From assembly GCA_017935785.1 (NCBI GenBank), contig JAGBGU010000053.1, positions 1 to 52,816 of the forward strand: DNA of 52,816 bases, written 5' to 3'. The stretch is from Bacteroidaceae bacterium (GTDB lineage Bacteria > Bacteroidota > Bacteroidia > Bacteroidales > Bacteroidaceae). The notes beneath the pieces are model-generated. The model did not search any database. It was not told where the DNA came from and worked only from the letters and a program-made list of their open reading frames with translations. Both the position numbers and the translations under genes were made by a program. This document shows positions 2,801 to 50,929 of this stretch, piece by piece; within the stretch, counting starts at the first letter, position 1, and the number at the start of each line of letters is the position of its first letter.

Positions 2801-2874
2801 CAATACGGTGCGTTGGCAAAGACAATACGGATACAATGCGGTGACTTTGCCAACGGCACCGCATTGGCTTTTTT
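2801..2874 (+). terminator. Long hairpin with a competing inner stem, then a T run
   Basis: Arm 2801-2821 pairs with 2845-2866 with one A/G change and one bulge, and GCTTTTTT follows. The loop holds a second copy of the left-arm start (CAATACGG, 2823) and a third (CAATGCGGTG, 2834-2843) that pairs perfectly with CACCGCATTG (2857-2866). Two mutually exclusive structures can therefore form, one a compact terminator. The blocks start at 2801, 2823 and 2845, a 22-bp step. Confidence 0.55.
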
Positions 2875-2876
2875 AA

Positions 2877-2989
2877 GAAGAAATACTGGCTTTTCAGAGC
2901 AGATATACTGCATGGGCCAATGCAGATATACTGCAACGGCTGTAGAAGATATCTTAAACGAGCAATGCAGTACTACTGCTGTTCTAAAT
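2877..2989. repeat. Tandem dyad array, period 22-23 bp (array 1)
   Basis: Five units start at 2877, 2899, 2922, 2945 and 2967. The best three carry the dyad GCAG-N5-CTGC (2899-2911, 2922-2934, 2967-2979); the units at 2877 and 2945 are degenerate. The array ends about 57 bp before the -7 box of the next gene, so it could be an operator set or part of the wider array class seen elsewhere in this window. Confidence 0.6.
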
Positions 2990-3045
2990 GAAGGCAAAAA
3001 AACTTTATTTCTCTCTTTTCCCGTTGCTTGTTCCGTTATTTTTGC

Positions 3046-3053
3046 TAATTTTG
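3046..3053 (+). promoter_or_regulatory. -7 box TAATTTTG for the TlpA-like gene
   Basis: Perfect match to TAnnTTTG, with GTTG 19 bp upstream (3023-3026) as a -33 candidate; 45 bp before the start codon. Confidence 0.65.
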
Positions 3054-3098
3054 CACTCACTAATGCATATAGGACATTAATATAATAATAATTACGAC

Positions 3099-4208
3099 AT
3101 GAGAAAGTTACATTTATGGGCAATGATTCCCGCCCTTTGTCTGGCGGCTTGCACCGAGACAAAGACAAGTACAGAGATTAAGGTAACAGGAGAACTGGGC
3201 GACCCCAAGCCAACGTTCCTTAGAGCCTTTTACACCGGTGATCTCCTTCTGGAATCGCAGGTGGCAGAAGACAGTACCGTTACGTTTGTCATCGACACAA
3301 CGGATGTATACGTGTCTGTGGACCGCACAGCCGACCAGAAGCGCACTTCTGTGTGCAGCGTAATCGCTGACGGCACCCCGGTGGAAGTGACCATCAAGGA
3401 AGGAAAAGGACAGATTACCAAAGGGTCTGAGCAGAACATGAAGTTGGCAGAGGCACGCAGCATGTTCCAGGCCTTGGAAGAAAAGGACGGTGCGCTCAGG
3501 AAGGAATTTGGCGAACTGCATAAAAAGCACAATGGCAACGTTCCCGAAGAAATGGTAAACAGCCTGATGGAGCGCTGGGAAACCTTGGAAGAGGAAATGC
3601 TTGCTGCAAAGAAACAGGCGGTTCTGGGTAATGCGGACAATCTTGTGCCCGTATTCTTCCTGTGCAGATATGCAAGCGATTTAGGTGTGGAGTTTGTGGA
3701 CAGTTTCCTTACTGACTATAAATACAAGGACAGCAAGCAGTTGACCTCTGTGTACCGCATGCTCGAAGGCGAGCGCAACAAGCTGCCCGGCGCTGATGTG
3801 GTAGACTTCGCCGGAAAAGACCTTGAGGACAAAGAGTCTCATCTGACTGACTATGTAGGTAAGGGCAAGTATGTGCTGGTAGATTTCTGGGCAAGCTGGT
3901 GCGGTCCCTGCCGTGCGGAAATTCCCAACATTAAGGCTTGTTATGAGAAGTATCAGGCGAAAGGCTTTGAGGTTGTGGGCATTTCTTTCGACAGCAAAAA
4001 GGAAGATTGGGCGAAGTGTGTGGAGGAAATGGGCATTGCATGGCCTCAGATAAGCGACCTGAAGGGGTGGGAATGCGGAGCCGGCGATATTTATAACGTA
4101 AAGGCAATTCCCGCGACGATTCTCTACGGCCCCGACGGTAAGGTTATCAAATCCGGTATCCGCGGAGAAGAATTAGGAAAGACATTGGCGGAGATCTTTG
4201 GAGAATAA
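3099..4208 (+). CDS. DUF4369/TlpA-like thiol:disulfide oxidoreductase lipoprotein
   Basis: A 369-aa lipoprotein: signal peptide with lipobox LAAC and the lipidated Cys at 18, then a beta-rich DUF4369-like domain (about 25-110), a helical linker (about 120-220), and a C-terminal thioredoxin fold with the active site WCGPC (Cys268, Cys271) and a cis-Pro segment 'VKAIPATILYG'. The family reduces or rearranges disulfides in the periplasm; in Bacteroidales such proteins are abundant and their partners are usually unknown. Transcribed alone, behind array 1 and its own promoter and closed by the terminator at 4239. The domain layout is typical; no oddity inside the protein. Confidence 0.92.
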   Translation: MRKLHLWAMIPALCLAACTETKTSTEIKVTGELGDPKPTFLRAFYTGDLLLESQVAEDSTVTFVIDTTDVYVSVDRTADQKRTSVCSVIADGTPVEVTIKEGKGQITKGSEQNMKLAEARSMFQALEEKDGALRKEFGELHKKHNGNVPEEMVNSLMERWETLEEEMLAAKKQAVLGNADNLVPVFFLCRYASDLGVEFVDSFLTDYKYKDSKQLTSVYRMLEGERNKLPGADVVDFAGKDLEDKESHLTDYVGKGKYVLVDFWASWCGPCRAEIPNIKACYEKYQAKGFEVVGISFDSKKEDWAKCVEEMGIAWPQISDLKGWECGAGDIYNVKAIPATILYGPDGKVIKSGIRGEELGKTLAEIFGE

Positions 4209-4238
4209 TGCTCCGAGTTTCCGGAAAACGGAAAAGAA

Positions 4239-4278
4239 AAACGGTCCGCAACCTTGGATGACAGGTTGCGGACCGTTT
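4239..4278. terminator. Bidirectional terminator between convergent genes
   Basis: A 15-bp perfect stem (arms AAACGGTCCGCAACC at 4239 and its complement at 4264-4278) with a 10-nt loop; A run before and T run after, so it can serve both the TlpA-like gene and the DUF349 gene. Confidence 0.9.
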
Positions 4279-4304
4279 ATTTTGATGAGGAAAGTGCAGA
4301 GGGA

Positions 4305-6137: not shown

Positions 6138-6192
6138 GTGTAGTTTTATCTAAAATATAGGTTATTGTCGATAATCTTCTTACAAAATAAGA

Positions 6193-6200
6193 CAAAAATA
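6193..6200 (-). promoter_or_regulatory. -7 box TATTTTTG for the DUF349 gene
   Basis: Perfect TAnnTTTG on the minus strand, 55 bp upstream of the start codon. Confidence 0.55.
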
Positions 6201-6244
6201 TGTTTGCAACCTAATAAAAACGAAGTTTTTTGCAAAAATAGGCG

Positions 6245-7402: not shown

Positions 7403-7410
7403 TAAAGTTA
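7403..7410 (-). promoter_or_regulatory. -7-like box TAACTTTA, probable corA promoter
   Basis: One base from TAnnTTTG, with CTTG 19 bp upstream on the minus strand; no other candidate lies closer to corA. Confidence 0.45.
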
Positions 7411-7443
7411 AGGATTTTCCGGAAAATAGCAAGCAAAATGCAT

Positions 7444-7490: not shown

Positions 7491-7511
7491 GTTCTCTGTT
7501 TAGTCCATAAA

Positions 7512-8813: not shown

Positions 8814-8832
8814 GCGTCTATATATTATATTA

Positions 8833-30361: not shown

Positions 30362-33300
30362 TTACTTGATAGCCATCTTGTAAGTTCGTCCGTCGCCCTT
30401 GATTACATAGATTCCAGGCTTCAGGTTCATGCCACCAGCCTTGCCGTTGTAAACCACCTGTCCGTTGGTTGTGTAAACGGTTACCACGTCTGACTTGAGT
30501 GCGGGATCAGCCGTAATCTTGTCTATTGCGGTAAGCAGGTCGAAGGTGGGATAGCTTCCTTCTGCCATATCGCACTGCCAGGGAGCGCCCCAGCCTACAA
30601 CTGTGCTCTGCAATGCGGCAAAGTTAGAACCGTCGTAGAAGCTGATACCTGTCTTGGTGTCGGCAGCACCCTGCTTGTTCTCAACCTGTGCATAGAGTGC
30701 AGAAACATTATCCTGAGTAAGAGGTTCATTGTAAATGCGCGCATTTACAATTTCCCAGTTGGCTCCAGCTTCGGGAGTGGGAACTCCGTCCTTGGTGCCA
30801 GTATCCGCTCCAATACCAATCCAGTGGTCAATTTCATTGGCGGGGAATACCATATCGCCCTTCATCTCAACCATCTTAAGCAGCACACCGTTTACATAGA
30901 TGTACATCATCTCTTCTGTCTTATTATAAACACCCACAGCATGGTAGAATACCTTAGAGATGGGATAGATTTCACTTTGTGCCTTTACATAAGCGCCATT
31001 ATGAGTCAGGAAGTCCAAATGACCGCCGTTAATCTCGAATCCGAATCCGCCGCTTGCCATGGCTGAGAACATCTTGGAATTTCCGCCCACCTTGTCATAT
31101 TCGATGGCAAATGTGGTTTCCATAGAGAATCCGTCTGTAAGAGCATTCTTGAAGTTCTCGTTACCGGCATAGTCCACAATGTAGCAGTCTGTGGGATAGG
31201 TTCCCATCTCTGCCTTCATGGTGGCAATGTTGCGTCCGTACTTCTCGCTGTAAACCACTGTGGGTGCACCGTAAGTCTGTACAGTATGCTGCATGGGAGA
31301 AACGTCTGCGGCAGAGCCGTCCTCGTTGAATACGATATCCATCAGGTCGGCTGTAGGCAGAGCTGTTGTCAGGTCGGGAGCCGCATCAACGGTTGTACCG
31401 AAGTTGTTGTCTGTGTTGTTCCAAACCACTACATTTTCATAAGTAGAGGCAGGAGTGTAGGTCTTCTGGCCGCCGCCAACGATACCGCCACCCTTGTTCA
31501 TTGAACCCGCTGCATAAGCCTGGAGGATGGTCAGTTCGCCACGAACACGACCCACCAGTCCGCCGGTATAGTCGGCCTCGCTGGTAATTTCCACATTGGT
31601 GTAGCAGTTCTTGATGTAAGCAGGTCCGCCAACGTTACCTACCAAACCGCCTGCATAGCCAGAAGTCACGTTCAGCTTACCTGTTACCCATACATTGTAA
31701 AGCGTGCTGGTAATCTTCTTGGCATCATTTCCGATATACATGTCATGTCCCATGTAACCGGCCAGAATACCTGTTCCGGAAACATCGGCCTTCACATTCG
31801 CATTCTCGAATCCGACGTTGCGCACATCACCGCTAAGGATTCCGAAGAAGCTGTTGTAGTACTGGCCGGGAACGGTGCAGGAGAAGTTACGGATAACATG
31901 GCCGCAACCGTCAAAGTCGATAAAGTTCTGATATTCTCTTCCGTTAGCTATGTCTGAAGCCACGTTCAGCGGTGTCCAGTCTTCCACTTCGGCCATGTCA
32001 ATGTCGTTCAGAAGCTGTACATAGGTCTTCTTTCCGGCAACCATCTGCTTGCGCAGGTCTTCCATTTCTTCAGCGGTGGCAATCAGGATAGGATCGTCCT
32101 TTGTACCTGTGAACGGAACCATACTACCGGGAACCATTCTTCTCAGTTCTGCAATAGCAGCCTTCATATCTGCTACATCCTGTTCGGTTGCGCTCAGAGA
32201 AGCAATCTTTTCAACCGCAGCGTCACACAAAGCAGTCAGTGCATCAGCCGCAGCCTGCAGTTCGGGATGCTCGTCATAGTAAGAAATACCTTCGTCTGCA
32301 GTGTACAACTGGAATTCACTTACGTTCCAGTAAGCATATCCAGAAGTGGCTTGCAACATATTGAAGCGGATATACTGGTAGCTTCCACCCAACATGATGG
32401 GCTCGGTGTTCTTGAAGTATGCATCGTTTTGGTTAGGAATTTCAGGATACTCAACGACGCAGATTTCTGTCCAGGACTTTTCGTCATCAGGAGTATTGGT
32501 AGCCAGAATTCGAATCTTGTTGGGCGTATCATGCCAGAATTTCTCGGGGGCACCGTCGCCACGGCCAGAGTATTCCATATAGAATCCTCTTACAGCCTTG
32601 TCAAGAGCTACCTGCAGATACTGGGTTCCGGCTCTGAACTGGTCTTGTCCGGCACCAGAAGCGTCTGAGTGGAAGAAGGTCTTGGTACTGCCGTCAAGCA
32701 AGTTCTCAAGACCGCCCTCTGTGCCCCACTGGCAGTTGGTAGAGAACTGGTTGGTGTCATAAATCATGGGCTTTCCGCTCTTCTGCATAATGGGAGCAAG
32801 CAAGTTACGTGCAGTGAGCATAGCCAGACGCAACTCGTTGTTGATACCATCGTAATTAGAATAGCCTCCGTCCACGAGCAGAACCTTCATATGGCTCTGG
32901 TCAAGCACGGGAGAAGCGTCCTCACCAATAGTCTGTTTCCATTCCATACACTCGGGATGCCCCTCATTGGCCTGGTTCAGGATGTAAGCAATCTCGCCGG
33001 TAGCATAGACGTCTGTGCTTACGCTGTTGCGAGAATTGGTCATTGTTCCCAAATAACCACCACTGCGACCGTCACCGGTAACAAATGAGCCAGAGAAGCA
33101 GTAGTCTACAGTACCGAAGCGCTGCTGGTTGTCGTCACGGTTGTCACCTACGATCATACCGGCACGAGAGTAAGGATTGATGAAGTTCTTGTTCTCGAAA
33201 CAAGCACGAACCAAACCACCGTAGTTACCTGCGGCAATACCGCTGACAATCTCACCGGTATGGTTAACGCGTGAATTGATAATGGCGCAGTTTTCAATAA

Positions 33301-36300
33301 GACCGCCAGGGAGGTTCTGTCCGCACAATGCACCGTGACGTCCGGAATAAGCAGCCTTATCACCGAATTCGAATACATAATTGTCTATAATAAGGTTGCG
33401 GATGGTTCCAGAGTTGTTACCGAACACACCGCTGCTCGCATAATTTGAATTATAGGTAGCGGTCAGGTTCTTGATGCTGAAACCGCGTCCGTCAAATACA
33501 CCCTGGTATCCGGGAACGGTAATTTCGCCGCCGGCGCCGTTAAGATTGCCGGGAGTGGCATAGCCGATGGGAGCGTAGAAGGTAACGCCCGTCATGTCAA
33601 TATCATTGAGCAATACGGCGTCCATGGTGTTGCCGATACCTGCGTTAACCAGAGAAGCGAACATGATGAATTCCTTGGCATTACTGAGCTGTGCCACATT
33701 ATTTTCAATTACGGGCATGAATGAGAGTCCTTCGAAGGGATTTACATTCTGAGCCTCTTCCATAGAATAGGCACCATCCAGGTAAGCATTGGTAATGGTA
33801 TTGTAAGATTCGTCCATCTTGCCAGCCTCTGCCTCGGTAATCATTTCGGCAAGGAACATCTCACCGCTGATTTCCTGCAATACCTCGGCCTTGGTCATCA
33901 TGTTTGTATAGGCCATCTTGGTGTCATAGACTTCCTGCATCAGGTCGCCCAGTTCCTTTACCTTAGCCCATTTTTCCTCTACTGTTCCGGCTGCAGATAC
34001 GGTGCCAAGCACCTCGGCCACCTTGTTCTGTGTGGCCATAGCATAGTTGGGAGCGGCATTGGCATTGCCGTTTTCTACGCTGAATGTAGGATACTTCTCA
34101 TTCAGAGTGGTCAGTCGGGCCACCTGGCAAGCCAAAGTGCGGTCAATGGCCTCTTCAGCCAACGGATTGTCAAGTTCGCCACAGTATGTCATGCTGAACG
34201 GGCCAATCCAGGTCTGGTTGGCAGCCTTGCATCCGGGGGTAGAAACACCGATGCTCAGGGTTCCGTCCTCACCTACAAGTGCTACTACGGAATGCTGGTA
34301 CAGACCGTCGCCAAAAGCATAGGCCAGAGCGCTGCTGTTTGTGGGCAGATAACCGATGGTGTTACCCTCAATATCGGTTACGGGCTCGTACTTGTCTGCG
34401 TGTGCAGGGGCGGGATCGGCAGGCTGCATGCCTTCAATCAGGGCGGCAGTATAGACCTTGTTCTCTCCTGCATAGATAAATGAGTTCTGTGCATAAGACT
34501 GGTTATACCCGTCGGCACGATAGGCGGCATTTACCTTCAGTTCGTACACACCGGGGGTCAGGCCGGTAATGGTCTGGCCGAATTCTATGCGTGTCCCGGT
34601 TTCACCGATACGGGTAACACCGGCATCGCCCACGTTGGTAAAGCCAAGTGCATTGTTGTAAGTCCAGCCCTCGTTATTCTTGGCAAAGTCCGCATTCACA
34701 ATCATGCTGGTTACGTCGGCACCTGCCAGGTAACCTGTGGCAATGGCCTTGTCAAGCAGTTGCTGTACAAAAGCGGCCTCGGCTGCTATTCCTTCATTGT
34801 CCAGCAGCAGGTTCTCCATGACATATGCATAAGAACCGTTGGGGAATTGTGTAGAATCGGGTTCAACAGTCTCATTCAGGTAAGTTTCCAGCAATTCACG
34901 GCCGGCACCTCCGAAGTTGGTGTTTTCTGCCATATAGGCTGTCACCTCCTCAACCTTGGCCACGTATGCGGCATAAGCCTTGGCCGACTCAATCATAGCG
35001 GCACGAACCGCCTTCATTTCTTCCAGGATAGGAACAAATTCCTCAAGTGATGCAATGCCTTCGAGCTTTTCAATGAGCGCTGCATACTGTGCCGTGATTT
35101 CTGCCTGGCAAACGGTCTCGTCCATGAATGTGGATTCTTCGTCAACCAACATACTTACGAAGTCTGAAAGGCCGTCGGCAGAAATGTTCTCGTTGGTTCC
35201 GCTCAGAGATACCACTACCAGAGGCTTCTCCTTGTCCAGAACGGGATATTCGTCACCGCCCAACTCCTGACGCCATACGCCATTGGGGTTAAATGTGCTT
35301 CCGTTCAGTTTGTAAGCCACCTCACCGTTCTGGAACGCTTCGGCGCTGACATGGTCCTGACAATTGGTCTTGCCGCCGCCATAACCGCCACTGCGGCCTT
35401 CGCCCGTCACAAAGTTCTGGGAATAGCAGTTGATTACCTTTCCCTTACGAACCTGGTTGTCATCGTAGTTGTCGCCTACGAGCATACCGGCACGGGGATA
35501 AGGATTGATGTTGTTGTTGTATTCAAAGCAGTTCTGAATGGTTCCGCCATAATTACCTGCGGCAATACCGCTGACAATCTCGCCGGTATTTACCACATGG
35601 CTTTCCACCACATAGCAGTTTTCAATAAGACCCTCAACCAGCTGGCCAGCCAAAGCACCGTGACGACCACTGTAACCATTTTCCCAATAATAACCGACAA
35701 CACCCAGATTGCGCACCGTACCGGTTACGGTACCAAACACACCGCTGGTCGCATAAGCGTTATTGACGGTTGCGGTCAGATTGGCAATGGTAAAGCCCTG
35801 TCCGTCAAATTCGCCGGCAAAGCCGCGGTTTGAAATGGGCTGGCCGGTATGGTTAAGCTCATTGGAATTGGCTACGCCGATGGGCACATAGCCTTCAATG
35901 CCGCTCATGTCAATATGGTCTGTAAGGCGCACCTTAACCTCGCGGAAGAAGCCGCTGTTCACACCTTCTGACAGAGTCATCAGATCCTCGGCATTGGTTA
36001 CAAGGTACCATCCTTCTGCATCCTGTTCCAGAGCCAGTTCTGTTCCACCGACAATCTCCAGGTACTCTTCCTTGGTAATGAAATGGATGTTACGGATATC
36101 CAGTTCCACCTCGGCAACAGCGCCCGGGTCTATACGGAAGAACTCTCCCGCCTTGCCCCAATTGAAGCTCTTACGCTGGTCTTCTATGTTCACATACTTC
36201 ATTGTCCAGTCTTCAGCAGCGGGAATATCGAAAGACATCTCGCGTCCGCCGGCAATGGGAGAGAAGAAGAATTCAGCTCCGGAGATATCGGTTGCGGTCT

Positions 36301-37267
36301 TATATTCGAAAGCCACAACGGTCTCGTTGTCCTTAAGGTCTTCCTGCAAGGGAGACAGATGCACATAGGGGTCACCGTCCAATGTCTTGATATGATAATA
36401 ATAAGGCTCAACCTGGGTTAGCTCCATTCCGTGCATGTTCACACCAATCTGGAAATTGCCGTTTGTGGCAGGCACAGCCTCAAACTCCTCGGCTCCGGTA
36501 TCCATGGCCTTTACATTATTATATAGAGTCCCTACCTGGTCTGTGCTGAGCACATCGCCATAGATACGCGCCACGGCTATGTTACCGGCAAAGCCGCGTA
36601 CACATTGGCCGTCAGGATCCACGTCACCGCCGATAGAGAACCACATATTGCCCTCGCCAGCCTCTTTATACATTCCGTCCACATCGAACTTCTTGGCCAA
36701 TACGCCATCCACGTAAACGTTCATCACGCTCTTTTCGGGATTGTGCACAGCCACAATGTGGTAATACTTGCCGCTCTCGGGAACGATACCGCTCGGTACG
36801 ATCTGGGCTTTTCCGCCCACGTTGGCTTCAAACGAAATCTGGTAGCTCTGGCTGCCGTTTCCTACAAAAATCTGGCCGCCACCGCCTTCGTTTGTTGAAA
36901 GGATTGCCGCCTGTTCAGAGCTTACGTCGATAATCTTACTTACCGGACGAACCAGCACCTCCCAGGTAAATCCGTCCTTCAGCGCATCGCGGAAAGCCTG
37001 GTTTTCTTCGTAGTCCACACGGAAATAGCTCTGAGGGATGAAACCCCACACATTGTCACTAAGGCATGCTGTATTGATGCCATACTTGAGGCTTTGCTTT
37101 ACCGTTGGCGTACCAATGGCCTTCACCTCGTTCTTCATGGCGGAAACGTCCTCGGCCGTTCCGTCCGTTTTGAACACCACATCCAGCAAGTCGGCCTGTG
37201 GAACTTGCGCCCACGAAGTCGCCGCTATCATTGCAGTGGTCATCAACGACAAAAATCTACGTTTCAT
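30362..37267 (-). CDS. 2301-aa modular surface protein: LamG, GLUG, discoidin, sorting domain
   Basis: Signal peptide MKRRFLSLMTTAMIAATSWA. Approximate domains: LamG-like (25-255), a GLUG-type beta-helix block (455-650), helical linkers (700-870), a carbohydrate-binding-like beta domain (870-1060), a second GLUG block (1210-1400), an F5/8 type C (discoidin)-like domain (1490-1656), a third GLUG block (1730-1930), a second LamG-like domain (1960-2200), and a C-terminal domain ending in 'NGQVVYNGKAGGMNLKPGIY' with a basic tail, like type IX secretion sorting domains. GLUG blocks 1 and 2 are near copies ('GEIVSGIAAGNYGG' in both, about 770 residues apart). Role inferred: secreted or surface-anchored glycan binding or adhesion; no catalytic domain seen. 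Confidence 0.85.
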   Translation of the reverse strand: MKRRFLSLMTTAMIAATSWAQVPQADLLDVVFKTDGTAEDVSAMKNEVKAIGTPTVKQSLKYGINTACLSDNVWGFIPQSYFRVDYEENQAFRDALKDGFTWEVLVRPVSKIIDVSSEQAAILSTNEGGGGQIFVGNGSQSYQISFEANVGGKAQIVPSGIVPESGKYYHIVAVHNPEKSVMNVYVDGVLAKKFDVDGMYKEAGEGNMWFSIGGDVDPDGQCVRGFAGNIAVARIYGDVLSTDQVGTLYNNVKAMDTGAEEFEAVPATNGNFQIGVNMHGMELTQVEPYYYHIKTLDGDPYVHLSPLQEDLKDNETVVAFEYKTATDISGAEFFFSPIAGGREMSFDIPAAEDWTMKYVNIEDQRKSFNWGKAGEFFRIDPGAVAEVELDIRNIHFITKEEYLEIVGGTELALEQDAEGWYLVTNAEDLMTLSEGVNSGFFREVKVRLTDHIDMSGIEGYVPIGVANSNELNHTGQPISNRGFAGEFDGQGFTIANLTATVNNAYATSGVFGTVTGTVRNLGVVGYYWENGYSGRHGALAGQLVEGLIENCYVVESHVVNTGEIVSGIAAGNYGGTIQNCFEYNNNINPYPRAGMLVGDNYDDNQVRKGKVINCYSQNFVTGEGRSGGYGGGKTNCQDHVSAEAFQNGEVAYKLNGSTFNPNGVWRQELGGDEYPVLDKEKPLVVVSLSGTNENISADGLSDFVSMLVDEESTFMDETVCQAEITAQYAALIEKLEGIASLEEFVPILEEMKAVRAAMIESAKAYAAYVAKVEEVTAYMAENTNFGGAGRELLETYLNETVEPDSTQFPNGSYAYVMENLLLDNEGIAAEAAFVQQLLDKAIATGYLAGADVTSMIVNADFAKNNEGWTYNNALGFTNVGDAGVTRIGETGTRIEFGQTITGLTPGVYELKVNAAYRADGYNQSYAQNSFIYAGENKVYTAALIEGMQPADPAPAHADKYEPVTDIEGNTIGYLPTNSSALAYAFGDGLYQHSVVALVGEDGTLSIGVSTPGCKAANQTWIGPFSMTYCGELDNPLAEEAIDRTLACQVARLTTLNEKYPTFSVENGNANAAPNYAMATQNKVAEVLGTVSAAGTVEEKWAKVKELGDLMQEVYDTKMAYTNMMTKAEVLQEISGEMFLAEMITEAEAGKMDESYNTITNAYLDGAYSMEEAQNVNPFEGLSFMPVIENNVAQLSNAKEFIMFASLVNAGIGNTMDAVLLNDIDMTGVTFYAPIGYATPGNLNGAGGEITVPGYQGVFDGRGFSIKNLTATYNSNYASSGVFGNNSGTIRNLIIDNYVFEFGDKAAYSGRHGALCGQNLPGGLIENCAIINSRVNHTGEIVSGIAAGNYGGLVRACFENKNFINPYSRAGMIVGDNRDDNQQRFGTVDYCFSGSFVTGDGRSGGYLGTMTNSRNSVSTDVYATGEIAYILNQANEGHPECMEWKQTIGEDASPVLDQSHMKVLLVDGGYSNYDGINNELRLAMLTARNLLAPIMQKSGKPMIYDTNQFSTNCQWGTEGGLENLLDGSTKTFFHSDASGAGQDQFRAGTQYLQVALDKAVRGFYMEYSGRGDGAPEKFWHDTPNKIRILATNTPDDEKSWTEICVVEYPEIPNQNDAYFKNTEPIMLGGSYQYIRFNMLQATSGYAYWNVSEFQLYTADEGISYYDEHPELQAAADALTALCDAAVEKIASLSATEQDVADMKAAIAELRRMVPGSMVPFTGTKDDPILIATAEEMEDLRKQMVAGKKTYVQLLNDIDMAEVEDWTPLNVASDIANGREYQNFIDFDGCGHVIRNFSCTVPGQYYNSFFGILSGDVRNVGFENANVKADVSGTGILAGYMGHDMYIGNDAKKITSTLYNVWVTGKLNVTSGYAGGLVGNVGGPAYIKNCYTNVEITSEADYTGGLVGRVRGELTILQAYAAGSMNKGGGIVGGGQKTYTPASTYENVVVWNNTDNNFGTTVDAAPDLTTALPTADLMDIVFNEDGSAADVSPMQHTVQTYGAPTVVYSEKYGRNIATMKAEMGTYPTDCYIVDYAGNENFKNALTDGFSMETTFAIEYDKVGGNSKMFSAMASGGFGFEINGGHLDFLTHNGAYVKAQSEIYPISKVFYHAVGVYNKTEEMMYIYVNGVLLKMVEMKGDMVFPANEIDHWIGIGADTGTKDGVPTPEAGANWEIVNARIYNEPLTQDNVSALYAQVENKQGAADTKTGISFYDGSNFAALQSTVVGWGAPWQCDMAEGSYPTFDLLTAIDKITADPALKSDVVTVYTTNGQVVYNGKAGGMNLKPGIYVIKGDGRTYKMAIK

Positions 37268-37319
37268 GATTTTTCTTGATTTTTGGTTAAAAATTAAATG
37301 AAATTCACTCTATATGATG

Positions 37320-37327
37320 CAAATATA
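37320..37327 (-). promoter_or_regulatory. -7 box TATATTTG for the 2301-aa protein gene
   Basis: Perfect TAnnTTTG on the minus strand, with TTGT 20 bp upstream; 52 bp before the start codon. Confidence 0.7.
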
Positions 37328-37434
37328 ACAAAAATTCACAAACTTGCACAACATTTAGTCCAAAAAACTTCCGGTATGAACCTGAATCGGATTCTAAAAT
37401 ATGTTTAAAGAAATCAAAAACAACCGCAAAAAAC

Positions 37435-37474
37435 GTGTTCCGGCTCTTGTGAAACGGGGAAAGCGCCGGAACAC
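37435..37474. repeat. Hairpin GTGTTCCGG/CCGGAACAC
   Basis: A perfect 9-bp inverted repeat with a 22-nt loop, between the tandem array and the surface-protein promoter. Function unknown. Confidence 0.5.
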
Positions 37475-37534
37475 ACTCGTGACCCACTTTCGTCGGACAT
37501 TTTCTCCCGTCTCAATCTAAAAACAGACTTTATA

Positions 37535-37855
37535 CACTGCAAAGATATAATTTCAAAATGAAATTTCATTTTCACACACTGCGAAGATATAATTTCAAAA
37601 TGAAATTCCATTTCCACACACTGCGAAGTTACAATTTCAAAATGAAATTCCATTTCCACACACTGCGAAGTTACAATTTCAAAATGAAATTCCATTTCCA
37701 CACACTGCGAAGATACAATTTCAAAATGAAATTCCATTTCCACACACTGCGAAAGTACAATTTCAAAATGAAATTCCATTTCCACACACTGTGAAAGTAT
37801 AATTTCAAAATGAAATTCCATTTCCACACACTGCGAAAGTATAATTTCAAAATGA
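37535..37855. repeat. 42-bp tandem array, eight units (array 2)
   Basis: CACTGC/CACTGT recurs at 37535, 37577, 37619, 37661, 37703, 37745, 37787 and 37829, exactly every 42 bp. Each unit holds the dyad AATTTCA-AAA-TGAAATT; in most units the overlapping dyad GAAAT-TCC-ATTTC follows. On the minus strand the unit nearest the surface-protein gene carries a perfect -7 box (TATCTTTG, 37540-37547); the others carry one- or two-base variants (TATCTTCG, TAACTTCG, TACTTTCG). 42 bp is both 14 codons, hence spurious ORFs on both strands, and four helical turns. Confidence 0.9.
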
Positions 37856-37925
37856 CACAATGCCTACCCGAATACGGAAAACGTGTTTTTGAGCCTGTTG
37901 GGCCTTCAGAGCGCCACGAACTATA

Positions 37926-37973
37926 AAAAATACGGTTCTGCCGCCTTTTCCCGACACGCAGAACCGTATTTTT
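37926..37973. terminator. Terminator of the GtrB operon
   Basis: A 16-bp perfect stem (arm AAAAATACGGTTCTGC at 37926) with a 16-nt loop and T runs in both directions; it lies just beyond the gtrB-like stop codon. Confidence 0.9.
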
Positions 37974-38005
37974 CAGACAAGAGATGCTGTCCGACAGAGC
38001 GGAAC

Positions 38006-38926
38006 CTACTTCCCCACCTCGTCCATGACAAAATAATGGGGACGGTGCTTTACCTCCTTATAAATCTTTCCTATGTATTCGCCCGTGACGCCCAGGGCCA
38101 GCAGGAACGTTCCGCCCACAAACCAAAGGGAGACGAGCAGCGAGGTCCATCCCTGTATTGTATTGCCACGCACATGTTCCGCCAACGCCCAAATGATAAC
38201 CCCTAATGCAATAAGGATGAAGACAACGCCAAGTATGAAGATTAGACGCAGCGGCTTGACGCTGAAACTGGTAACGCCGTCCACCGCCAATGAAAGCATC
38301 TTGGACAGGGGATACTTGGACTCGCCGGCTTGGCGTTCCTTGCGGTTGTAATATTCCATCCTGACATTGAATCCCAACAAAGGCACCATGCCGCGCAGAT
38401 ACAAATTGCGTTCCTGATGAGCCAGCAGTGCCGCCAGCGCCCTTTGGCTCAGCAGACGGAAATCAGCATGGTTATATACCGTCTCGCTCCCCAGTGCCTT
38501 CATCAGTCCGTAGAAGGCCTGCGCCGTCCACTTCTTGAAGAAACTGTCCGAAGAGCGGTCGGCACGCACGCCGTAGACAACGTCGGCCCCCTCTGTATAA
38601 TCCATGACCATGCGTCCTATCACATCCACATCGTCCTGCAGGTCTGCATCAATGGACACTATGGCCTCCGCTTCGGCAGCCACATGCTCCATGCCTGCCC
38701 ACAATGCCTGCTGGTGTCCCACGTTATGCGCCAGCCGGACGCCGCGGACCAAGCCATACTCTTCGCTAAGGCGCTGGATGAGGTTCCACGTATTATCGCG
38801 GCTTCCGTCATCCACATACAGGATGCGCGCCGGACGTACAAGATTCTTGATGACTGCAGCCAGTTGGCGAGTGGTTTCTTCCAGAACCGCTTCTTCATTA
38901 TAGCAGGGGACAACGATGTAAATCAT
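38006..38926 (-). CDS. GtrB-like polyprenyl-phosphate glycosyltransferase
   Basis: A 306-aa GT2 with two C-terminal membrane helices (about 225-290). Motifs: 'IYIVVPCYNEEAVLEET', 'ILYVDDGSRDNTW', 'NVGHQQALWAGM' and the DxD 'SIDADLQDD'. GtrB/Dpm-type enzymes load a sugar from its nucleotide onto undecaprenyl phosphate at the cytoplasmic face. Last gene of a four-gene operon and directly after a GtrA homologue, the usual partner for flipping the lipid-linked sugar. Confidence 0.93.
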   Translation of the reverse strand: MIYIVVPCYNEEAVLEETTRQLAAVIKNLVRPARILYVDDGSRDNTWNLIQRLSEEYGLVRGVRLAHNVGHQQALWAGMEHVAAEAEAIVSIDADLQDDVDVIGRMVMDYTEGADVVYGVRADRSSDSFFKKWTAQAFYGLMKALGSETVYNHADFRLLSQRALAALLAHQERNLYLRGMVPLLGFNVRMEYYNRKERQAGESKYPLSKMLSLAVDGVTSFSVKPLRLIFILGVVFILIALGVIIWALAEHVRGNTIQGWTSLLVSLWFVGGTFLLALGVTGEYIGKIYKEVKHRPHYFVMDEVGK

Positions 38927-44522: not shown

Positions 44523-44540
44523 GTCTGTTCCGCCCCATTT

Positions 44541-44584
44541 TTTACATCGTGATGTAAATGGATTTACATAACCATGTAAATGCA
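44541..44584. repeat. 22-bp dyad array, two units (array 3a)
   Basis: Units at 44541 and 44563, each an 18-bp dyad TTTACAT-N4-ATGTAAA plus a 4-bp linker; the linker region itself forms GTAAAT-GG-ATTTAC, so alternate hairpins are possible. Just after the GlfT-like gene. Confidence 0.75.
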
Positions 44585-44669
44585 ATACGCCGTGAATCAA
44601 GATTTAATATCACTTCACAAACTAACCATTCCCCCTGAATTGAACGGGAGAAGGGAACAATGAACGATA

Positions 44670-44837
44670 TTATTTCCTGTTTGCCTTTAACGTAAAGACC
44701 GGCAGATAGATGAAGATGCCTATTACAGACATCACCAACCCTCCGATTGTGCCGGCTGCCAAAGGAAACCAGAAAGCCTCTTTGCCCGTCCCCACCATAA
44801 AGGGGACAAAACGGGTCCCTCTTCGCAGCCCCGATTT
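44670..44837 (-). pseudogene. RND efflux permease, C-terminal remnant
   Basis: The minus-strand frame ends at TAA (44670-44672) and reads 'VPFMVGTGKEAFWFPLAAGT' then 'IGGLVMSVIGIFIYLPVF', the last membrane helices of AcrB/MexB-type permeases in the Bacteroidetes style. Only about 48 residues of homology remain; the upstream part of the gene (about 1000 codons) is gone, and the homology stops near 44820, just before array 3b. Confidence 0.75.
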
Positions 44838-44946
44838 TTACATCACGATGTAAATGGATTTACTCTTCTATGTAAACGCACTTACATCACTATGTAAATC
44901 CATTTACACTTAAGGGTAAATCCGTTTACATTTTAATGATACCGCC
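44837..44946. repeat. 22-bp dyad array, about five units (array 3b)
   Basis: Units start at 44837, 44859, 44881, 44903 and 44925 (the last degenerate), exactly 22 bp apart. Dyads are TTTACAT-N4-ATGTAAA or close variants. The dyad at 44837 is the exact reverse complement of that at 44541, differing only at the centre (CGTG against CACG). Confidence 0.8.
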
Positions 44947-45031
44947 TTATAAACACAATGCACTGATATTCTATGCTTAATGACACCTGAAAAATTTGGC
45001 TTCCCTTCTGTTTTGAACGGTGAACGAAGAA

Positions 45032-45100
45032 CGTCTGGAAGACGGGAAGTTAAATAGCCGGGGGCTTTTAAGCCTCCGGTTCCTTACGTCCACACAATAA
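45032..45100 (+). repeat. Two-hairpin REP-like element
   Basis: Hairpin 1 CGTCT-GGA-AGACG (45032-45044), linker GGAAGTTAAATAG, hairpin 2 with stem CCGGGGGCTT/AAGCCTCCGG (45058-45079), then the conserved tail GTCCACACAATAA. Confidence 0.75.
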
Positions 45101-45102
45101 GG

Positions 45103-45258
45103 TGTCTGTAAAAATGCGATTGAGCGAGAGTAGAGCCAAGCTTGCTTGAGCTATGCCGAACCGACGAACGAGGCAAGAGCAGAGGATGCTTGCATACTAT
45201 GCCTTGTAAGGAGGAGGAAGACAAAGTCAACGTGAGCAATTTGGACGAAGTCAAAGAC
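45103..45258 (+). repeat. MITE-core segment inside a REP-like hairpin
   Basis: TGTCTG (45103) and AAGACGC (45254-45260) look like the two arms of hairpin 1, pushed apart by about 140 bp matching the inverted MITE core (GCCAAGCTTGCTTGAGCTATG also occurs, inverted, at 2.66 kb). Same nesting as at 27.56-27.69 kb. Confidence 0.6.
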
Positions 45259-45337
45259 GCGGAACGGCAACGTGGCATAATTTTTAAAACCTCCCTTAAG
45301 TGATATTCGTTCAACGTTAAAGGCCGTTGCCGTTTCC

Positions 45338-45430
45338 CGTCTTCCAGACGGCATTATAGGGAGCTATTTGAATCCACGGGTTCAAGAACCCGCGGCTATT
45401 CGCCCTTCGGACTTCGCGTCCTCCAGACGC
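45338..45430 (-). repeat. Two-hairpin REP-like element, inverted copy
   Basis: CCGTCT-TCC-AGACGG (45338-45352), then hairpin 2 with stem ACGGGTT/AACCCG (45374-45395), GGCTATTCG linker, and hairpin 1 GCGTC-CTCCA-GACGC (45416-45430). Confidence 0.7.
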
Positions 45431-45433
45431 ATA

Positions 45434-45856
45434 TTAGGAGTTTTGTTCCATAATTTGGGATAAATAATCAGAAGGGGTTAACACTGGAATCTGTGCAAAA
45501 TCAAAATGTTTGCAGTTCCTGGTTAAAATGATGTCACAATGATTCGCCATGGCGCATTGATATTGTAACATGTCTTCAAAGTCTGTTGCCGGATGAAGCA
45601 ATGCTTGCCTTAACTGATATTCATCCATTGGCAGTGTTTTTAACAAAGCTGACAAATCTGCAATAATACTGTAAAGTTGTTCCTGAGTGTGTCCTTTACG
45701 AGCAATATATGCAGCATTTGCCATCGTCAAAAAAGACACCTCTAAATCTACTTCGCCGTTTTCCCCAAGTTGAAGGACACTGGCAGCATCTTCTGCACCT
45801 TCTCTTTCTAAAATGAGGTCTAGAATGACATTCGTGTCTAAAAATATCCTTTTCAT
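45434..45856 (-). CDS. PIN-domain ribonuclease toxin (VapC-like)
   Basis: 140 aa, a full PIN domain: first acidic residue in 'KRIFLDTNVILD' (Asp7), second cluster 'ATDFEDMLQYQCA' and third 'CDIILTRNCKHF'. PIN toxins cleave RNA, often tRNA, in a metal-dependent way. The start overlaps the stop of the upstream small gene by 4 bp (ATGA), the classic antitoxin-toxin order. Flanked on the downstream side by repeat elements, which fits a mobile accessory module. Confidence 0.88.
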   Translation of the reverse strand: MKRIFLDTNVILDLILEREGAEDAASVLQLGENGEVDLEVSFLTMANAAYIARKGHTQEQLYSIIADLSALLKTLPMDEYQLRQALLHPATDFEDMLQYQCAMANHCDIILTRNCKHFDFAQIPVLTPSDYLSQIMEQNS

Positions 45857-46098
45857 TTATTCATGAGATAAGCTAAACGGTCATCTTCTTCTATTTGTTG
45901 TTGAGTTATTCCTTTGGCTACACCACGAAGACGTTGGATGCGTTGGGAATAGACTTGTTGGGAAGGAGTTGTTGTTTCTTCTTTTACTTCTTTATAGAGA
46001 GAAATATTTACCACTCCTTTCAACATTTCAATAGCTTTCATTATCTTCGGAGCTATGGAATTATCATCTAATGTAACAAGAATCTGTGTCATACGCAT
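45853..46098 (-). CDS. Antitoxin partner of the PIN toxin
   Basis: 81 aa; an N-terminal beta-alpha segment ('MTQILVTLDDNSIAPKIMKA') then a charged C-terminus that should be flexible and bind the toxin ('QQQIEEDDRLAYLMNK'). No classical ribbon-helix-helix motif recognised, so the family name is left open; role inferred from order and overlap. Start at 46098 or 46092 (MTQIL). A perfect -7 box precedes it. Confidence 0.75.
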   Translation of the reverse strand: MRMTQILVTLDDNSIAPKIMKAIEMLKGVVNISLYKEVKEETTTPSQQVYSQRIQRLRGVAKGITQQQIEEDDRLAYLMNK

Positions 46099-46121
46099 CT
46101 GCTTTTTATGGTTACTTGATG

Positions 46122-46129
46122 CAAAGATA
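46122..46129 (-). promoter_or_regulatory. -7 box TATCTTTG for the PIN module
   Basis: Perfect TAnnTTTG on the minus strand, 23 bp before the antitoxin start. Confidence 0.65.
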
Positions 46130-46357
46130 GATGTTTTTATTCAATAACAATATGATAAAGCCGAAAATTGAAGCACGTTATTATTTTCACGTCACTTATT
46201 TGGCAGAAATATTATGGATATGAAACAATTTGCAACAAAAAAATTGAACTCTTAACCACAAATGCCCCAAAAAGCTTAGCGCCTTCTAAATAAAAAGTAG
46301 AACAGAAAACTCTTTTTCCTCTCTATTCTCCGGTGTTTCGCTGCACGCTTGGCGGCC

Positions 46358-47503: not shown

Positions 47504-47527
47504 GCTGTTTTTTCCTTGATAACACTG

Positions 47528-47535
47528 CAAAAATA
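47528..47535 (-). promoter_or_regulatory. -7 box TATTTTTG for glf
   Basis: Perfect TAnnTTTG on the minus strand, with TTGT 19 bp upstream; 24 bp before the start. Confidence 0.7.
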
Positions 47536-47643
47536 TCCCTAATCTTCCAAATAAACAAGTTCCGGACACATTTATATTAACATAAAAGCATCACACAGCG
47601 CCACAATCGTGCATAACGCTTTCCTTTTCCCGATAAAAATGCC

Positions 47644-47651
47644 TATCTTTG
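47644..47651 (+). promoter_or_regulatory. -7 box TATCTTTG for the GH-A hydrolase
   Basis: Perfect TAnnTTTG, 27 bp before the start codon; divergent from glf. Confidence 0.65.
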
Positions 47652-47678
47652 TGAGGAAATCATTCTAAATACCGACTC

Positions 47679-49556
47679 ATGACAAGACTGTTCTCCCTTA
47701 TCGCATTGCTTGGCTGCCTTATGCAAGCTGTGGCGCAGCCCTATTTCCCCTGCACCCCGCGGCTGGACAACCCTTATGGCGTATGCACCCACATCACCCG
47801 TCCGGGATGGGACTACGAGATTCGCGACAACGAGCTGGACATTGCACGGAATGCCGGTATAGGCTGGGTGCGGTCGGATCTGGACTTCGGCAACTTCTTT
47901 ACCTCGTACACCACCGCCAACCCCGACTTGTTCCGGAACGTCCTTAACAGTACGGACCATTACGGAACGAACCTGCTGGGCATCCTTACCCGTATGGGCA
48001 AACAGTCATGGGACGATCCGCAATACGCCCGACTGGTGGAAATGATGGCCAAGACCTACGACGGACGCATCACACACTGGGAGGCACAGAACGAAGTGAA
48101 CCTTATCAGAGGGGTGGATGACCTGTGCCGCAAATACGTAGGCGTACTGAAAACCACCTACGAGACCCTGAAGAAAGTAAACCCCAAGAACGTGGTGCTG
48201 ACAAGCGGATTCGGCGAACTGCACGAGCCTTTCCTCAGCGACTTCTCCCGTCTGGGCGGATGGAAATACTGCGACGTGTTCAACTTTCACACGTATTTTA
48301 CCCCAGAAGGACTCATCCCCTGCTTTGAACGGCTTAAGGAAACCATGAACCGCGACGGGTGGGAACGTCCGGTGTGGCTTACCGAATGCGGTATGCACAC
48401 GGCCAACGACCGCCAGAACTCCGCCGGTTTCCTTTCCGACCTGCTGCCTGCCGCGCTCAAGCGCATCGGCAAAGAGCCTCGGAAGACTGCGGTGGGCGTG
48501 CTGCGCGACGCGGAAAGCGGATACAATGTGCTTACGGATGATGATGCCGACTACCTGCTCCGCCCCCACTTCCGCCGGGTGGCCTTCATCTCCCTTCAAC
48601 AGCTCCAGGGACTTTCCGTCAGGGACGTGCCCGTGCTGGTGGCTGCCGCCGACGAATATTTCCCCGGCACCCGCTTCCCTGCCCTGCTCGACTATGTGCG
48701 CAGGGGAGGAACAATTGTCCTGGCCGGCGGAATGCCCTTCTATTACGACGCCCATACCCCCGACGGCATCTTCCTGAACCGGAAAGAGCTGGGCACAAGC
48801 CTTTACCGGCAGCTGCACATGGCGCCAGCCACACGGTGGGAAGCCCCCGCAAGCCGGGAACCGCTTACCGAAGTGCCGCCCCTTTGCGAAAGGAACACGG
48901 ACATTGCATTCTCATACGGATGGACTCCCACCAAGGACTCGCCGGCCCGCTACCTGTCCGACGCCAATCTGCATCCTGGGGACAGCCTCATCCCCCTCAT
49001 TTCGGCCGGAACCGCACATCTGCGCTACCCCATTGCCGGCATATACAAATTGAACAGCGAACTGAAGGGCAACATCATCTTCCAGACCCGCATGTATGCC
49101 AAAATATCCAGCAACAAGGAGGCCGAACAGGCACGGCGCGTACCACGGCTCTATCTCATTGCCTTCTCTTACGGAGTGGACAAGGTGTTCTGGTACAACC
49201 TGCGCAGCCGCGAGAAAGACCCGGCCTACAGCGAAGACAACTTCGGGCTGCTGCACAGCGACCTTAGCGACAAGCCGGCCATGAAGGCCTACCGCACCCT
49301 GACGGAAATGTGTCCCGACGGAAGCACCCGCCCCACGCTGACAGTAACCGACGGCCTGTACCACGCTACATGGAGCCGTCCGGACGGCACTGCGGTACAT
49401 GCCCTGTGGGCGCCCACAGGAAACAAAACGGTGCGGATAAAGAAACACAGCCGCATCAAGGTATATGACCACCTGGGGAACCGCCAGCATCTGAAAGGCA
49501 AGACTTTGGATGTCAAAGAAGGTGTGTATTATGTTGAAGGGGATATTACACATTGA
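47679..49556 (+). CDS. Clan GH-A glycoside hydrolase-like exported protein
   Basis: 625 aa with a signal peptide ending near 'LMQAVAQ'. A TIM barrel (about 30-270) has the clan GH-A pair: acid/base Glu in 'ITHWEAQNEVNL' and nucleophile Glu in 'PVWLTECGMHT'. A second alpha/beta domain (about 270-400, 'VRRGGTIVLAGGMPFYYD') resembles a glutamine-amidotransferase-like fold, and a beta domain closes the protein. The GH number (GH5/GH39-like) and substrate are not assigned. Placed next to glf, it may act on the bacterium's own glycan or on host or dietary glycans. Confidence 0.78.
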   Translation: MTRLFSLIALLGCLMQAVAQPYFPCTPRLDNPYGVCTHITRPGWDYEIRDNELDIARNAGIGWVRSDLDFGNFFTSYTTANPDLFRNVLNSTDHYGTNLLGILTRMGKQSWDDPQYARLVEMMAKTYDGRITHWEAQNEVNLIRGVDDLCRKYVGVLKTTYETLKKVNPKNVVLTSGFGELHEPFLSDFSRLGGWKYCDVFNFHTYFTPEGLIPCFERLKETMNRDGWERPVWLTECGMHTANDRQNSAGFLSDLLPAALKRIGKEPRKTAVGVLRDAESGYNVLTDDDADYLLRPHFRRVAFISLQQLQGLSVRDVPVLVAAADEYFPGTRFPALLDYVRRGGTIVLAGGMPFYYDAHTPDGIFLNRKELGTSLYRQLHMAPATRWEAPASREPLTEVPPLCERNTDIAFSYGWTPTKDSPARYLSDANLHPGDSLIPLISAGTAHLRYPIAGIYKLNSELKGNIIFQTRMYAKISSNKEAEQARRVPRLYLIAFSYGVDKVFWYNLRSREKDPAYSEDNFGLLHSDLSDKPAMKAYRTLTEMCPDGSTRPTLTVTDGLYHATWSRPDGTAVHALWAPTGNKTVRIKKHSRIKVYDHLGNRQHLKGKTLDVKEGVYYVEGDITH

Positions 49557-49702
49557 ATTATAATAGACCGTCTGTCAGCACACTTTCATAAACAATCGGA
49601 ACACTTAGCTTATTCTCTGCCTGTTTCAAAATAATCAAACGCCCTAATTATTGGTGTATAGATATAAAAAAGGCACCAAGCGCCAATATTCATTAAATAA
49701 GT

Positions 49703-49733
49703 TTTGAGGTATCAGAATTAAAGTCTATATTTG
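49703..49733 (+). promoter_or_regulatory. Full promoter TTTG-N19-TATATTTG
   Basis: TTTG at 49703-49706 and TATATTTG at 49726-49733, exactly the Bacteroidetes consensus spacing; drives the DUF4160/DUF2442 pair. Confidence 0.8.
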
Positions 49734-49757
49734 CATATTATAAAACACAGAGCAGGC

Positions 49758-49994
49758 ATGCCTACAATATTAGTAATATTCGGATTAAGATTCTATTTCT
49801 TCGCCAATGAACATCTACCAATCCATGTTCATTTGGAAAATGGAGACGGAATCGCAAAGATTGCCCTTGAGCCAGAAATAGAATTAGTTGAAAACAATGG
49901 CATCAAACCCAAAGACATCAAAAGGGCTATATGCATTGTTGAACAATACAAAGAAGAATTCATAGAAAAGTGGAAAGAATTTCACGGTGAATAA
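49758..49994 (+). CDS. DUF4160 domain protein
   Basis: 78 aa; start at 49758 gives the family-typical opening 'MPTILVIFGLRFYFFANEHL' followed by 'PIHVHLENGDGIAKI', the DUF4160 core with conserved His residues. The function is unknown; it is commonly encoded just before a DUF2442 gene, as here, and the pair has been suspected to be a toxin-antitoxin-like module. Confidence 0.88.
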   Translation: MPTILVIFGLRFYFFANEHLPIHVHLENGDGIAKIALEPEIELVENNGIKPKDIKRAICIVEQYKEEFIEKWKEFHGE

Positions 49995-50010
49995 TATAAG
50001 ACATACTACT

Positions 50011-50427
50011 ATGGCTAAAATTGAAAAACTTTGGTTTGATTCTGGCAGAATATGGATTACGACAGACGAAGGGCAGACACTTAGTCGGCCATTGGAAGCA
50101 TTTCCAACGTTGAAGGATGCTACAGAAGGCCAACGGCTATCCTTCAAAATTGGCAGATTTGGCAACGCCATCAGATGGGAAGAAATAGACGAAGACATTC
50201 ATATCAGTAATTTCTATGAGACAGAAGAACCAGACTATGACAACGAAATTGCAAAAATTTTCCATAGGTTCCCCCAGTTAAATATCTCTGAAGTGGCACG
50301 AAGTATGGGTGTCCACAAAAGTCTGCTTGCCAAATTTATATATGGCATAAAGGTGCCAAGCGAAGAAAGAAAAGCACAAATCAGACAAACTCTTCGTCTG
50401 CTTGGGCAGGAATTAATGACCGTATGA
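50011..50427 (+). CDS. DUF2442 protein with C-terminal helix-turn-helix
   Basis: 138 aa. The N-terminal DUF2442 part ('IEKLWFDSGRIWITTDEGQT', 'SRPLEAFPTLKDAT') is followed by a helix-turn-helix-like segment near 90-130 ('ISEVARSMGVHKSLLAKFIY'). This supports the DNA-binding, autoregulating partner in the DUF4160/DUF2442 pair. ATG at 50011 is preferred over the GTG at 49987, which overlaps the previous gene. Confidence 0.85.
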   Translation: MAKIEKLWFDSGRIWITTDEGQTLSRPLEAFPTLKDATEGQRLSFKIGRFGNAIRWEEIDEDIHISNFYETEEPDYDNEIAKIFHRFPQLNISEVARSMGVHKSLLAKFIYGIKVPSEERKAQIRQTLRLLGQELMTV

Positions 50428-50819
50428 TTGATAAAAACGTTTGCTGATGAATGTATTGCCAAACTACTACTCACCATGCCACTTTCTGAATTGAAGAGCA
50501 GAACCACCTTCCGCGGACTTAATCCCATTGCTTCTGAAAGTGTTCTCACAGCTCTTCGCCGTCGGCATCTGTCCTGTTCATGAAGTTCTGCAGACCTTTT
50601 TAACCCAAACCAGTCAATAGGCTCTTACACGCTAATGGTCGATTTGGGTTAAATAAGAACGGAAACAGACAACGGACTTTGTTTTGGATTTAACCGTTTA
50701 GAGTCCAAGAACTGATTGTCAAACTTTTTTACTTCTGCCCACCAATCACATGTGGTTTCAATATGAACAGAAATTAACCAAATATAGTTCAAAAACAAAC
50801 CTGATTCACCTTAAAATAC
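50428..50819. other. Gene-free stretch with an inverted repeat
   Basis: No supported gene. TTTAACCCAAA (50599-50609) and its exact complement TTTGGGTTAAA (50643-50653) form an 11-bp inverted repeat whose starts are 44 bp apart. A 35-codon frame from 50488 (MPLSELKSRTTF) has no family I know. Confidence 0.4.
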
Positions 50820-50929
50820 AGCCCTACTGGGAAAAAATAAATTTCCAACTGAGAAAAAATAATTTTCCAGTTGGGAAATAATATTTTTCCAACTGGTCAT
50901 TTCCGGCTTTCCAACTGGATTCCTCCGGA
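50820..50929. repeat. 22-bp dyad array (array 4)
   Basis: Units at 50842, 50864, 50886 and 50908, exactly 22 bp apart and each starting TTTCCA; a degenerate unit precedes at 50820. The first two contain the dyad TTTCC-N5-GGAAA or a near match; CCAACTGG and CCAGTTGG alternate, so neighbouring units can also pair. Confidence 0.75.

Follow-up and report, generated by a model that had tools for sequence, protein, structure and literature searches.

The window analysed here is the whole of contig JAGBGU010000053.1 (52,816 nucleotides; contig C86 of genome G000 in our numbering), one of 90 contigs in the 2.95-Mb draft genome of a Bacteroidaceae bacterium (GCA_017935785.1), and it carries four intergenic sites at which short units are repeated in tandem. 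Our favoured reading, to which we give a probability of roughly 0.4, is that three of the four are dispersed intergenic elements whose approximately four sites, 22 bp apart, would likely be bound by a putative dimeric DNA-binding protein. Such sites are not four but many, those of the window being members of a larger class, and the feature common to the arrays is their spacing; a dyad is prominent only in part of them.

Results

A first-pass annotation of the window had described four arrays with unrelated units and periods of 22 bp (22–23 at the first, 42 at the second), and its coordinates, periods and units are borne out by Tandem Repeats Finder (TRF) and by motif positions. Array 1 has GCAG-N5-CTGC at 2899, 2922 and 2967 and a GAAG..CTT variant at 2945 (spacings 23, 23 and 22), array 2 repeats AATTTCA-N3-TGAAATT seven times between 37549 and 37801, each step being exactly 42 bp, array 3 places TTTAC-N8-GTAAA at 44541, 44563, 44837, 44859 and 44903, and array 4 has TTTCC at 50842, 50864, 50886 and 50908, a step of exactly 22 bp. 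The second, overlapping dyad described for arrays 2 and 3 is seen in both, as GAAATTCCATTTC and as GTAAA-N4-TTTAC (44554, 44850, 44894 and 44916), respectively. Dyads are clear in arrays 1, 2 and 3, and one dyad per unit is a loose description of array 4, where the full TTTCC-N5-GGAAA dyad occurs in one unit only (50864–50878). A CRISPR array is ruled out, as the entire unit repeats and no unrelated spacers lie between repeats. Within the window, Rfam 15 gave 0 matches over the gathering score and a tRNA scan found none.

Arrays of this spacing recur throughout the source genome. A sample of 709,787 bp (24%), searched with TRF at score 60 and period ≥10, yielded 65 arrays once units below 10 bp and overlapping lower-scoring rows had been dropped: six of period 21, 24 of period 22, 11 of period 41–42, three of period 83–84 and 21 of other periods. 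These are not chance arrays, because one first-order Markov shuffle of the genome's own DNA gives none at the same threshold. The autocorrelation scan of intergenic DNA that had been proposed earlier shows peaks at lags 21–22 and 41–44 in the source genome, over a floor of 2 per lag that is present in the shuffle too and probably reflects N runs, and at lags 22 and 44 in two other genomes of the genus (G012 and G016).

The spacing is shared by related genomes, while the units mostly are not. Judged by one protein, the closest named relatives are two metagenome-assembled genomes of Bacteroidaceae bacterium, recovered from the cecum of cattle and of buffalo (88% and 87% identity; G031 and G032). 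Their samples hold 10 of 17 and 16 of 26 arrays at period 21–22, respectively. The corresponding counts in 200-kb samples are 11 of 16 in G012 and 13 of 28 in G016, and 14 more same-genus genomes (396 kb) add 18 of 43 at 21–22, with five at 44 and one at 42. Ten of these 14 have at least one array of 21, 22 or 44 bp, and the other four (G001, G006, G011 and G014) have none within 20–40 kb each. Such arrays are thus present in 12 of the 16 other same-genus genomes sampled. Their units are mostly different, with species-specific examples in G003 (GACCCATGCGCATGGGTC), G005 (CCCCTATAGGG), G013 (CTTCATCGCGATGAAG), G010 (TGTCTCACGTGTGAGACA) and G012 (GGTTAACC); one array family is common to G008 and G012. 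Farther afield, two genomes from other families of the order have 6 of 19 arrays at 21–22 with a median of two copies, five stretches from the phylum (100 kb) have one array, outside these periods, and E. coli K-12 (200 kb) has no 21–22 array, its sole array having period 98.

Arrays were clustered into families over the source genome, G031 and G032 (1.1 Mb) so that copies would not be counted repeatedly. Of the 45 intergenic families, 22 fall at 21–22 bp, seven at 41–42 and one at 83, against 2 of 11 genic families at 21–22. Three of the seven period-21 families are, by eye, triples of a 7-bp unit, so the cleaner intergenic figure is 19/45. Elsewhere the families at 21–22 number 11/18 in G016 (10 when one 7-bp-triple family is removed), 2/4 in G012, 1/3 in G020 and 0/7 in G026. 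The earlier proposal that one process lies behind the same plan in different sequence therefore keeps its spacing component, which sets intergenic apart from genic families; the dyad is enriched and not universal, and the 42-bp array behaves unlike the 22-bp arrays. A repeat length quantised to the helix, seen across many families of unrelated sequence, indicates a physical constraint and not a common sequence ancestry.

Three of the window arrays belong to dispersed families, for which BLAST match counts include some single places matched on both strands. F1 (array 4, site 50826) has 30 matches in the source genome, 33 in G031 and 46 in G032; F7 (array 1, site 2877) has 15, 28 and 21, and F6 (array 3, site 44837) has 15, 18 and 15. 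F1 is a 263-bp element (50717–50979, forward strand) with sharp ends in a 25-copy alignment, short terminal inverted repeats TGTCAAA/TTTGACA, which it alone has among the families studied, and outer flanks that are unrelated between copies; its array core, with TTTCC half-sites at 22-bp steps, occupies 97 bp (50822–50918, forward strand). By eye, the aligned F1 loci show no clear target duplication. F1 has no match in 40 other genomes of the phylum, in G033 or in plasmids, and F6 has none in phages. No F1 match lies in the 3.8-kb locus (L186) around the G032 orthologue of the 51854–52684 gene; gain and loss are indistinguishable there because the flanks do not align.

F2 and F3 are hardly larger than their arrays, and F6 measures about 125 bp (44834–44958, forward strand), with alternating half-sites TTTAC/GTAAA that put a dyad centre every 11 bp, as seen by BLAST and in a 20-copy alignment. 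A partial F6 copy of two 22-bp units, recognised by BLAST and its dyads, lies at 44541–44584 on the same strand. Both copies sit in a 1.8-kb space (44523–46357) between convergent GlfT1-like and glf genes; F6 is absent 3′ of the orthologous GlfT1-like gene (98% amino acid identity) in both relatives, where glf follows after about 30–40 bp compared with 1,835 bp here. F7, with a 94-bp core at 2887–2980 (forward strand) made of GCAG-N5-CTGC and GAAG..CTT dyads spaced by 22–23 bp, occupies the orthologous position in both relatives, where its right flank is shared.

Unit number and spacing are preserved in the F1, F2 and F6 cores, with almost no insertions or deletions (indels). Of the 109 F1 matches, 25 came back from the search as loci and were aligned. 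In 25/25 of these copies the array measures 97 bp, with zero indels, and it has the lowest substitution rate of the whole element: 0.045 substitutions per site in copies of the source genome (left 0.163, right 0.126) and 0.067 in the G031 and G032 copies (left 0.166, right 0.218). For F6, 24 loci were fetched of 48 matches; 22 copies fit a pattern that requires the first unit, and the alignment comprises 20 of them, L178 (one-base deletion) and L161:1222 (two units) being excluded. The half-sites TTAC and GTAA carry 2.0 bits over 48 units and the spacers 0.34–1.19; nine half-sites are invariant in the 20 aligned copies from three genomes, the first two partly owing to the search pattern. The F2 core is free of indels in 8/8 loci, with a degenerate first unit in one, and one F7 dyad is altered on both arms between species (GCAG..CTGC to GAAG..CTTC). 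Invariant half-sites at fixed spacing look like sequence recognition at fixed spacing.

The 42-bp array differs in these respects. It spans 37534–37855 (TRF; 7.7 near-identical copies, 96% match; dyad AATTTCA-N3-TGAAATT with the overlapping one given above) within a segment private to its own lineage (37470–38000, edges approximate), and alignment with the relatives' loci L027 and L028 shows the segment with its array to be absent between the orthologous genes of both. Two related arrays, at 82%, lie on contig C79 of the same genome, and the array has no match among 30 related genomes. Clade arrays of period 41–43 and 83–84 have 2.7–10.4 copies (median 7.5) and a median match of 89%. We regard the array as a distinct subclass: a true minisatellite, its period four helical turns, within a similar intergenic mosaic. 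A simple terminator scan of 37250–38050 found none, although a T-run hairpin is visible by eye at about 37925–37974. Downstream of the array, a 2301-aa Laminin_G_3 protein is encoded at 30362–37267 (reverse strand), and its start region aligns well in both relatives.

A neutral account of all the arrays would treat them as minisatellites, generated by slippage or unequal exchange, with the helix or the replication machinery favouring certain lengths. Such an account suits the 42-bp class, with its copy numbers, match and absence from two relatives, and the 23-nt repeats of P. gingivalis are likewise described as variable in number (PMC4596501). It is improbable as a general explanation, as F1, F2 and F6 retain unit order across loci and species and the F1 array is the most conserved part of its element. 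Nor does slippage predict the avoidance of gene starts described below, though selection against insertion there could.

Arrays of the 21–22 bp class avoid gene starts. Placement was assessed for arrays of period 20–23 or 44 against random placement within intergenic DNA, using a codon-usage gene caller made for this analysis and leaving out arrays that lack a called gene on both sides. Only 1 of 43 arrays in the clade lies within 100 bp of a gene start (10.6 expected), and 7 of 44 do so in other same-genus genomes (13.7 expected). For 30/43 clade arrays the nearest stop is nearer than the nearest start (21.3 expected), yet those within 100 bp of a stop are at expectation (10/43 versus 9.4); in the other genomes 26/44 are closer to the stop (21.7 expected). 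Arrays of other periods show no avoidance of starts, and in the clade 7 of 14 of them lie near a stop (3.1 expected).

Dyads were assessed mainly at the level of whole arrays, the test on consensus units being weak; divergent or coding arrays and those without two flanking genes were left out of the array-level test. The dyad beats column-shuffled arrays (60 shuffles each) at p ≤ 0.05 in 31 of 71. With consensus units, 5 of 39 families of period 20–23 are significant, compared with 6/19 further same-genus units, 0/10 at 41–44, 0/19 at other periods and 2/23 genic.

Both the dyads and the placement could instead reflect RNA. Arrays transcribed at gene 3′ ends might form one or several long hairpins that protect or end the upstream transcript, a reading we hold to be unlikely. 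All six arrays folded are more stable than their dinucleotide shuffles (z −2.9 to −8.5, with 0–1 of 200 shuffles as good), and the predicted fold is mostly a single long hairpin spanning the array. The long F1 stem has 89.7% of cells paired, with three both-sided pair changes compared with 0–1 when the pairing is slid. In the other same-genus genomes 24/44 arrays have a stop within 100 bp (12.8 expected), and among copies with a known upstream gene, F1 is behind a co-oriented gene in 23/27 and F7 in 17/17; the corresponding F6 figure is 14 of 24 copies, two places being counted on both strands. A row of palindromes, however, tends to fold in this way even without selection. When units were permuted in arrays of at least three, the native order came out ahead in the clade, with a mean rank of 0.345 (n = 53, same-family copies counted apart), but hardly so in other genomes (0.469, n = 48). 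The F1 covariation is weak, with stem pairs broken in up to 14/23 rows, and the F6 half-sites are invariant and not covarying. Sense-strand G–T mispairs are fewer than A–C mispairs (37 versus 77 in 49 arrays), and a single spacing in unrelated families is left unexplained, unless 22 corresponds to two turns of A-form RNA.

A second route to dispersed palindromes is transposition. Repetitive extragenic palindromic (REP)-like sequences may have been spread by a Y1 transposase, either IS200-like or a REP-associated tyrosine transposase (RAYT), acting on single-stranded hairpins. Species-specific extragenic palindromes of one plan, often 3′ of genes, recall REPs, and subclass 2.6 TnpA-REP of Bacteroidetes has atypical REPs (PMC6006769). 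Y1 transposases are present in the source genome (four), G031 (two) and G032 (three). Three copies of one IS200-like transposase (L215 on G032:C23, L216 on G000:C74 and L218 on G000:C5) have a 21- or 22-bp array about 0.4–0.8 kb away, F1 twice and F9 once, and a true RAYT (NF047646, 94.9 bits) lies about 1.5 kb from an F6-like array in all three genomes. An entire gene separates the two, and the RAYT is directly flanked by other hairpins (by eye); since these stand at its ends and the F6-like array lies across a gene, proximity does not demonstrate RAYT-driven spread. G012 and G016 are array-rich with no PF01797 match, both being incomplete drafts, and the helical spacing is not accounted for. 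We regard transposase-driven spread as a poor candidate.

The RAYT gene itself is conserved in the three genomes (L254, L255 and L256), flanked by its own hairpins as judged by eye. A motif tried for these hairpins had 0 occurrences in the samples, which suggests that this RAYT may have no dispersed REPs.

Other features accompany the arrays. A number of F1 matches in the source genome fall on or close to the ends of contigs (C3, C17, C55, C51, C85 and C20), so the draft assembly is probably interrupted by these elements. F1 copies are often bordered by degenerate 7-bp repeats (CTCATCG-like), inverted between the two sides (e.g. L025 15615–15680 and L022 401–456), and the unit of some period-21 arrays consists of this 7-bp repeat taken three times. 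In columns 44–60 of the F1 alignment, the loop of unit 3 reads CCAGTTGG, CCAACTGG or CCTGTTGG; CCAGTTGG and CCAACTGG are reverse complements of each other, suggestive of an inverted loop at the palindrome. A dispersed module around CATCCTGAACTTGTTTCAGGATCTG occurs in intergenic mosaics, at about 2700–2770 in the window and as a tandem pair at L008 13125–13251. Between the F6 copies, 44655–44836 (reverse strand) resembles the end of an efflux-pump gene, for which Pfam gave no confirmation.

Discussion

We favour phased protein binding as the explanation of the 21–22 bp elements. The sites of a core row, 22 bp apart, stand two helical turns from each other, and protein dimers would dock next to one another along a single face of the helix. 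The elements would have spread as miniature dispersed elements, by a route that we infer, and would be kept away from promoters. The model supposes a protein that binds, binding in dimeric form, and a separate protein for every unit family. It draws on the dispersal of the families, their constant spacing, the conserved F6 half-sites between variable spacers, the avoidance of gene starts and the lineage-specific units, together with the period counts (30/65 in the source genome), the fixed F1 and F2 architecture and the dyads of the array-level test.

Several observations weigh against phased binding. The binding protein is putative, and no such protein is known. Two turns of B-DNA amount to 21 bp, and most arrays have 22. 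For 40 of 71 arrays the dyad falls short of significance, as it does for 34 of 39 families by the weaker consensus-unit test. All six arrays folded as RNA do better than nearly all shuffles, which leaves some probability to an RNA role. Divergent intergenic regions are not avoided (5/43 versus 7.4 expected in the clade and 8/44 versus 6.9 in the others). F7 is looser, with spacing of 22–23 bp and single-base indels, one F6 copy (L178) carries its one-base deletion, and the conservation of F1 and F6 is overstated because the aligned copies are among the best-scoring matches.

More doubtful than the binding itself is a further step, that these phased-site elements form a new class in one Bacteroidales genus, with 3–5 sites two turns apart, behind genes, whose units turn over while the spacing stays fixed. 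If true, the class implies a set of dimeric DNA-binding proteins that evolve fast, each together with the arrays that belong to it across the genome. Binding to these rows would constitute a large unmapped network, lying apart from promoters, in one group of gut bacteria, and would give the P. gingivalis repeats of 23 and 41 nt a wider setting. The fixed spacing makes phased binding directly testable by a half-turn shift of sites.

Known systems share parts of this plan. Plasmid iterons and tandem operators have three to seven sites about 21–23 bp apart that are bound on one helix face. They differ in standing at one origin or promoter, whereas the arrays here are dispersed, away from gene starts, and have a putative partner protein. 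In the titles and abstract openings of the searched, largely non-subscription literature, a genus-wide class with one spacing is not described.

REPs, bacterial interspersed mosaic elements (BIMEs) and REPtrons are similar in being short extragenic palindromes with lineage-specific sequence, one plan and several families per genome (PMC3733652, PMC6006769). The arrays here differ in their fixed 21–22-bp rows, and two array-rich genomes (incomplete drafts) are without a Y1 transposase match. The REP tag GT[AG]G or CGTC is not apparent by eye in the consensus units, for which no systematic scan was made, and subclass 2.6 REPs are also described as lacking it (PMC6006769).

The first-pass annotation knew of no named class with this description, which is only partly right: BrickBuilt (23 nt) and 464/PgRS (41 nt) of P. 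gingivalis are close analogues, and 22-nt repeats are also mentioned for W83 (PMC4596501). They too are intergenic and dispersed in a member of the Bacteroidales (about 10–20 copies per genome), with unrelated units and predicted long stem-loops, and F1, F6 and F7 are likewise dispersed intergenic elements with internal tandem repeats. BrickBuilt repeat number ranges from 1 to 22.8 (PMC4596501), unlike that of F1 (97 bp in 25/25), F2 (constant in 8/8 loci) and F6; the 42-bp arrays do vary. Terminal repeats are of the IS5-type GAGACC.. in BrickBuilt and 464, whereas F1 ends in TGTCAAA/TTTGACA, and here one spacing is common to many families per genome. BrickBuilt/464 and REP/BIME are the nearest known systems, and each fails a defining feature tested here.

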